Below, piece after piece: positions 8,511-9,952 of a stretch of 64,000 bases of DNA; positions within the stretch are counted from its first letter, which is position 1, and the number at the start of each line of letters is the position of its first letter. The notes below the pieces were generated by a model. That model was not told where the DNA came from. It searched no databases and saw only the letters and a list, made by a program, of their open reading frames with translations. The stretch is from Methanosarcina barkeri 3. GTDB taxonomy: Archaea > Halobacteriota > Methanosarcinia > Methanosarcinales > Methanosarcinaceae. The DNA lies in contig NZ_CP009517.1 in NCBI RefSeq assembly GCF_000970305.1, forward strand, positions 3,410,001 to 3,474,000. Reading direction: 5' to 3'. The position numbers were made by a program, and so were the translations under genes.

Positions 8511-9058
8511 TCTTTCTTGTTTTAGAAATATTATAAATAAAAAATTAAAAAAATTGGCCTTATTTACAGGTAGAATTACCTGACCTGTGATATTAGTTGC
8601 TTACTGGATACCTGAAAAACAAGAGAAAAGCTGCTTATAAAAATTTTAAGATTTCTACTCAGAATTTCAAGCCAGGAGTTTAGACTGCTGAACTTTATTT
8701 TTTTCTATTTTTATCAACACTAATACAGAATTTGGATATTTGCCACCTTTTTCTATTTTTATATTAGCTTCATTTGTATTTGAACAAGCGACCTAAATCA
8801 CTGCTGTCCCAATAATACATATTAATTTTTGGCAACCATGGCCTTGTAAACTGAAATATTGAGATGCCATTCCGGGCTGCGTGTGAGTCAGAGTGGAATC
8901 ATGTAAAATGTCTGCTATTTTGTACAAAGAAATTGAAAACAACGTCACATTACTGTTGAATATTTATTTATATGTACGAAGTCTATTATTTAGCGAGTTT
9001 AACGTTTATGCGTTAATTTCGCAGTTAAACAGGATAAATTAAACGTAGAGGTTATGGT
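8511..9058. other. AT-rich spacer
   Basis: About 550 bp between the 139-aa ORF and the repeat protein. There is no gene or clear repeat. The segment from 8935 to 9050 is AT-rich and probably holds the promoter of the downstream repeat gene; ATTTATTTATATG near 8962-8974 is TATA-like. Confidence 0.4.
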
Positions 9059-9952
9059 ATGCATAATAGACATGAACTAAAAGAAGAAGCTGGCAAAACA
9101 ATCAGGAGGGTAAAAACCGAAATCAAGGAGACTCACAGGACAAACGAGAAGTCTAGCTCCAGATCCTGTTACGTTCCTGGTTCCTGGGAAGGAATAAAAA
9201 AGAATCCAAAAATTGAACGGATCAGGAACAAGCAGCGTTATGTGCCAGGATTCTGGAAAGGGACTATAGAAACACGGGTAGAGAAACCCGACTATAAGCA
9301 AAAATACATACCCGGGTTCTGGAAAGCGACAAAAGAGAACCCAAAGCTTGAGAAAATAAAGTACAGACAACGTTACATTCCCGGACTCTGGAAAGAAACT
9401 GCAAATACCAGAAAAATAAATAAAGATGATTATGAGCCACGTTATATTCCCGGCTTATGGAGAGGAACAAAAGAGAATCCGAAAATAAGTAAGATCAGGT
9501 ACAGACAGCGTTACATCCCAGGATTCTGGAGAGGAAACACCGAGAATTCAAAAACAGATAAGATCAGTCATAAGCCAAAATACGTACCTGGATTCTGGAA
9601 AGGAACAAAAGAGAATCCAAAGCTTGAGGAAATCAAGTATAAACAACGTTATATTCCCGGACTCTGGAAAGGAACAGAAAAAACTCCAGAAACAAAGAAA
9701 GTTGACTATAAAGCGCGTTATATTCCCGGTTCATGGAAAAGTACAACAAAGACTCCGAAAATAAGTAAAATCAGGTACAAACAGCGTTACATTCCCGGGC
9801 TCTGGAAAGGAAATGCGAAGAAGGATAGCTATAGACCTCGTTATGTGCCTGGCTCCTGGGAAGGAATAAAAGAAGCACCTAAGAGAAGTGAAAAATTTAG
9901 TTACAAGCCTCGCTATGTACCTGGATTCTGGAAAGGAATACCGAGAATCTAA
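9059..9952 (+). CDS. Repeat protein with 12 Y-[VI]-P-G-x-W modules
   Basis: After a charged 36-residue N-terminus the whole protein is made of 12 tandem modules of mostly 23 residues. Each opens with [RK]Y[VI]PG[FLS]W[KR]G and continues with a lysine/glutamate-rich linker. Odd-numbered modules carry a TKENPKxxKIxYxQ-type linker and even-numbered ones a TxxTxxxKxDYxx linker, so the true period is about 46 residues. Module 10 is shortened to 18 residues and the last stops after 13. The protein is very basic, with no signal peptide, membrane segment or cysteines beyond C37. The motif faintly resembles bacterial WxxGxW (YXWGXW) repeats, but I cannot assign it to a named family. Function is unknown. 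Confidence 0.85.
   Translation: MHNRHELKEEAGKTIRRVKTEIKETHRTNEKSSSRSCYVPGSWEGIKKNPKIERIRNKQRYVPGFWKGTIETRVEKPDYKQKYIPGFWKATKENPKLEKIKYRQRYIPGLWKETANTRKINKDDYEPRYIPGLWRGTKENPKISKIRYRQRYIPGFWRGNTENSKTDKISHKPKYVPGFWKGTKENPKLEEIKYKQRYIPGLWKGTEKTPETKKVDYKARYIPGSWKSTTKTPKISKIRYKQRYIPGLWKGNAKKDSYRPRYVPGSWEGIKEAPKRSEKFSYKPRYVPGFWKGIPRI

Follow-up and report, generated by a model that had tools for sequence, protein, structure and literature searches.

The stretch of DNA analyzed here, a window of 64 kb from a host genome of 4.56 Mb in a single contig, carries on its plus strand an open reading frame with an ATG start (window:9059-9952) that encodes a PGxW repeat protein of 297 residues, homologues of which are found in 12 Methanosarcina species. 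The first 35 residues (9059-9163) are rich in lysine, probably form a short helix and show no apparent signal peptide, and both the start and the pattern xKxEAxKTAKxxKxEV are conserved in the two forms in which this gene occurs. From residue 36 onward (9164-9949, plus strand), the protein is built from 12 Y[VI]PGxW modules that combine into six odd–even pairs of about 46 residues each. Specifically, the module lengths are 23, 22, 23, 23, 23, 23, 23, 23, 23, 18, 24 and 14 residues, the last module being shortened, and the core Y[VI]PGxW is present in all 12. Six-frame translation of the whole 64-kb window returned 12 matches to this core, every one of them inside the open reading frame. A sequence-only reading of this DNA had described 23-residue modules with the extended pattern [RK]Y[VI]PGxW[KR]G; the core stood throughout, whereas the length of exactly 23 residues holds for 8 of the 12 modules and the full pattern for 7, with C, E, A or S at an edge position in modules 1, 3, 4, 9 and 11. 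The same reading had called the protein highly basic, in agreement with a composition of 51 Lys and 27 Arg (78 basic residues) versus 30 Asp and Glu, a pI of 10.2 and a net charge of +48; the protein also contains 12 Trp and 21 Tyr. The G+C content of the repeat gene (40.6%) matches that of the window (40.5%).

With respect to module order, same-parity modules of the window protein are 52% identical, versus 43% for modules of opposite parity (p = 0.003 by label shuffling), and the same preference is seen in window-type proteins generally (p 0.003-0.06). In the other form of the gene the period is visible as an alternation in length, odd modules having 23 residues and even modules mostly 9-20, and in one such copy (L076) this alternation is present although the parity identity test was negative (p = 0.54). 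Across the homologues, even modules span 9-23 residues and all modules together 9-24. The module counts of the ten complete copies are 8, 10, 10, 10, 10, 10, 12, 12, 14 and 18, every one even, although these ten share ancestry and are not phylogenetically independent; the copies from G004, which ends after module 10, and G021, which is interrupted by a contig end, were left out of this series. Exactly two modules (138 bp) were recently duplicated in G030, where modules 8-9 and 10-11 share 96% identity over this length, against 64-68% for neighboring modules. Relative to the window gene, two modules have been lost in L069 and four in L071, with hybrid modules at the joins, and within the window gene itself the closest module pairs (3/7, 5/9 and 4/8) lie four apart. 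The even counts, the alternating linkers and the duplication in G030 all support the earlier proposal of a two-module evolutionary unit. The opposite pattern, single-module insertions or deletions without odd–even order, was also looked for: the counts of the ten complete homologues are all even, but the 18-module copy of G007 shows two local breaks, namely one odd–odd and one even–even neighbor pair. Single-module events must therefore have occurred in G007, where the total is nonetheless even; such events happen but are rare. The even counts are in themselves no proof of selection for pairs, because the greater similarity of same-parity DNA would let recombination alone preserve parity.

Selection at the level of the protein, which had been suggested from codon differences between modules, was corroborated. 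The codons indeed differ, the core being written as CCTGGT, CCAGGA, CCCGGG, CCCGGA or CCCGGC, and dN/dS values calculated by the Nei–Gojobori method for the window gene versus seven orthologues are 0.19-0.33 overall. In the motif columns, the ratio falls to 0.05-0.12 for all but the nearest pair, where it is 0.27 with very few changes, whereas the linkers give 0.24-0.36 and exceed the motif in every pair except the nearest. By this measure purifying selection is strongest on the motif, and every copy has an open reading frame unless an element or a contig end interrupts it. The charge is also preserved: despite diverged linkers, all 12 homologues have a net charge per residue of +0.16 to +0.20, corresponding to +35 to +65 for the whole protein.

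In terms of structure, AlphaFold2 predicted no secondary structure for four modules modeled with 53 aligned sequences (pLDDT 52, pTM 0.12), and for the full-length protein modeled with 12 homologues (pLDDT 39, pTM 0.10) it drew a low-confidence helix over residues 4-21 and otherwise no more than some short turns; such low pLDDT values may also stem from a shallow, repetitive alignment. On a charge–hydropathy plot, all 12 homologues fall on the disordered side, with H of 0.34-0.40 versus boundaries of 0.47-0.49. These predictions suggest that the window protein is probably a disordered chain with recurring motifs, in which a fold may form on binding. The homologues also show the repeated, conserved short aromatic motif within variable spacers that is expected of a multivalent sticker-and-spacer protein.

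Upstream of the gene lies a promoter, ACTGTTRAAYATTTATTTATATGT (8950-8976, plus strand), that contains a TATA-like element and is conserved, being near-identical in all 12 homologues at two chromosomal sites. It is followed by a 5′ leader of about 80 bases (8977-9058, plus strand), conserved in the alignment, that ends in AGAGG and could form a hairpin of 11 predicted pairs; we do not regard this hairpin as a proven RNA element, since compensatory changes are absent from the alignment. Promoter and leader (window:8950-9058) show unusual conservation between the two chromosomal sites. The two gene forms have the promoter and parts of the leader in common, and therefore gene and promoter either moved together or are ancestral with a later relocation. 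A regulon sharing this promoter was also considered and rejected, as promoter and leader have no second copy in the genome. Similarly, hydrophobic stretches upstream of the homologues in L006 and L011 had suggested a secreted protein, but were rejected as signal peptides because they fall within the conserved non-coding leader or promoter and are closed by stops in other homologues.

In the clade to which the window belongs, labeled barkeri-like by inference, the repeat gene sits between a 139-residue ORF (window:8091-8510) and a 108-residue ORF on the minus strand (window:10717-11043), both encoding conserved Methanosarcina proteins and neither with a Pfam match. The 108-residue ORF is present in 19 of the 31 species, and the 139-residue ORF was not found beside the repeat gene in G014. 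Genes further upstream in this clade are, as we read their sequences, presumably hypA-hypB-hypE-like. In the other clade the repeat gene is flanked by what we take to be an aminopeptidase-like gene on one side and, on the other, the gene of a cysteine-containing protein. The neighboring genes gave no functional hint, and no conserved neighbor suggests a partner. Elsewhere in the window, a small protein of 123 residues (window:13568-13939) has two stretches matching DUF2795 (PF11387).

A protein search placed homologues in 12 of the 31 Methanosarcina genomes, with one copy per genome in the carriers, which include Methanosarcina spelaei MC-15 and two Methanosarcina metagenome-assembled genomes. 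A two-module profile recovered the same 12 and, in G002 and G016, short remnants; scans at the level of the family (112 genomes), the class (238) and the phylum (393) added no further relatives. Searches of phages, plasmids and viral contigs likewise yielded no relatives, one of them giving only chance matches at E 9. Among the genomes searched, the family thus appears to be restricted to the genus. The remnant in G016 is weak and doubtful, whereas in G002 a single final module is left as a relic of the gene (L075:9300-9750), adjoining what we take to be an IS630-like transposase. The G004 copy (L067, region below 9520, minus-strand reading) is missing its last two modules where it adjoins a transposase ORF that, from our reading of it, presumably resembles IS256, and the 108-residue ORF has moved elsewhere in that genome. 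In G003, a close relative of G030, 1.7 kb including the repeat gene is cleanly absent. Both chromosomal sites occur empty in many species, and in a tree of a neighboring gene (the cysteine-containing protein of locus B) the two gene forms make up two clades with gene-less species interspersed. This distribution indicates that the gene has been lost repeatedly, including in close relatives, from which it follows that its function is dispensable; the gene is thus under selection where it is retained and yet dispensable. As a separate observation, two directly repeated segments of about 130 bp (L072:9161-9290 and L072:10970-11097, 75% identical) bracket the gene in G007, and recombination between them would excise it.

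Comparison with known families agrees with the earlier judgment that the protein is undescribed. No match exceeded the cut-off in Pfam, NCBIfam or PHROGs, a PDB search returned no relatives, and a literature search for the motif strings found no paper containing them. PHROGs matches of 4e-6 for the window protein and 3e-8 for the G007 protein were set aside, as no stretch, or hardly any, passes on its own. The Pfam family WXXGXW (PF12779), proposed earlier for comparison, resembles the window protein in having a short repeat with a Gly-x-Trp core, but the position three residues ahead of the Gly is Trp in that family and Tyr in all 12 modules of the window protein. The family was absent from an hmmscan of the window protein at E up to 10, which gave only weak unrelated matches, and none of 58 candidates scored in the host genome reached E ≤ 0.001 in a search run without a positive control (the Pfam cut-off is 18 bits). 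Membership in PF12779 was rejected on both counts, the lack of a profile match and the replacement of the first Trp by Tyr. Taken together, these comparisons identify a real tandem-repeat family, built on a two-module unit, that is undescribed and confined to the genus among the genomes searched.

We consider the most probable description of this protein, at a probability of about 0.42, to be a disordered, multivalent sticker-and-spacer protein of the cytoplasm that most likely binds RNA, DNA or another polyanion. A cytoplasmic multivalent binder is favored because the aromatic–basic motifs are conserved, the basic spacers vary freely, no fold is predicted and no signal peptide is apparent. 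In such a protein, 8-18 copies of [RK]Y[VI]PG[SFL]WK would serve as stickers, a Pro-Gly turn presenting Tyr and Trp next to Lys or Arg, while the variable lysine-rich linkers would act as spacers that keep their charge but whose exact sequence is of little importance. Charge and stacking of the aromatic residues would bind RNA, DNA or another polyanion, which the many sites together could compact, bridge or condense. A precedent is PYCO1, a disordered protein with repeats in which Trp and Tyr act as stickers and which undergoes phase separation (PMC10288592). The cytoplasmic location, disorder in vivo, type of ligand and condensation are what we infer from these features. A nucleic acid or other polyanion is placed first as ligand because the charge is conserved; the strict motif puts docking to a partner protein second, and glycan binding looks least likely given the absence of an apparent signal peptide at the conserved start. 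Counting against a polyanion ligand is the near-invariance of Y-P-G-W, which is stricter than charge-driven binding alone requires, and a dispensable function fits poorly with a core role in chromatin or RNA biology. The tandem-repeat proteins STAR, MOON and pTERF bind DNA (PMC11417379); set beside the window protein by description, they resemble it in kind only, being tandem-repeat proteins with the nucleic-acid binding that is proposed for it, and the main text of that report mentions no archaeal member. A more specific proposal, a hitherto unrecognized archaeal condensate or nucleoid scaffold particular to Methanosarcina, in which the paired YxPGxW stickers would draw nucleic acid or an enzyme into a cross-linked, dense body and copy number would be tuned by twos, seems to us rather unlikely.

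The strictness of the motif relative to its spacers is also what would be expected of an array of linear docking motifs for one folded partner, the leading though tentative alternative, in which each Y-P-G-x-W motif or odd–even pair would fill a pocket and the protein would cross-link many copies of the partner, in the way that Rubisco is cross-linked by EPYC1 and PYCO1. Condensation of PYCO1, a disordered repeat protein, is driven by its Tyr and Trp motifs, and the Trp motifs also bind Rubisco; positively charged mussel-foot proteins have been cited as its physical analogue (PMC10288592). It therefore offers a precedent for a tryptophan motif, and the varying copy number, the variable spacing of one branch (9-20 residues for its even modules) and the kept pairing, which suggests that two adjacent motifs act jointly, all suit docking. 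However, a docking array would not need the high conserved charge, and no conserved neighbor points to a partner. The linkers PYCO1 and EPYC1 are moreover eukaryotic plastid proteins with no sequence relation to the Methanosarcina protein, the PYCO1 motif being KWSPR (PMC10288592) rather than [RK]Y[VI]PGxWK, so that a likeness in disordered repeats, short motifs with a critical Trp and separate Tyr motifs would be one of working principle and not of descent. A folded or ligand-induced repeat structure, such as a β-hairpin solenoid, with the 46-residue pair as one structural unit of two motifs, could instead underlie the strict pairing and the even counts of the ten complete homologues. We consider this unlikely, as recombination between the more similar same-parity DNA also explains the even counts, hydrophobic residues are few outside the motif, even modules range from 9 to 23 residues and AlphaFold2 found only a few short turns in the repeats.

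Carriage by 12 of the 31 species, the existence of two chromosomal sites, the cut by the IS256-like element in G004, the single module beside the IS630-like element in G002 and the clean absence in G003 would also suit an accessory gene of mobile origin that is close to neutral, with repeats that gain and lose modules and little function in the cell. The dN/dS of 0.19-0.33, the retention of promoter and leader in all 12 homologues and the open frames of all uncut copies make this improbable. Least probable of all is distant kinship with the bacterial Alvin_2107 family of sulfur-globule oxidation (NCBIfam NF049856), whose 59-residue profile would correspond to roughly one odd–even pair. Four of the seven homologues tested matched this profile by hmmscan (E 2.3e-10, 1.2e-9, 5.7e-8 and 5.6e-8), the best-scoring stretches span an odd–even pair, and four motif-keeping shuffles gave no match. 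Nevertheless, the scores of 33-41 bits are summed over repeats and lie below the cut-off of 60 bits, and the best single unit reaches 19.3 bits while two unrelated haloarchaeal proteins without PGxW reach 18 bits among the 393 phylum genomes, where no match exceeded the cut-off. Only 3 of 26 single odd–even pairs match (best E 0.0013), and no mazei-type copy tested does. Although the best E-value looked strong at first, we therefore do not regard this homology as established and retain it as a low-probability lead: nearly identical repeats add up to the total score while their single units are at noise level, and the profile similarity is a weak one.

With a multivalent polyanion-binding protein as the preferred reading, the new tandem-repeat family offers a natural series of 8, 10, 12, 14 and 18 motifs with modules of 9-24 residues. 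To our knowledge, multivalent disordered proteins have hardly been studied in archaeal cells, and some Methanosarcina-type archaea are genetically manipulable. The series would allow the effects of motif number, pairing and charge on a multivalent disordered protein to be tested in an archaeal cell.
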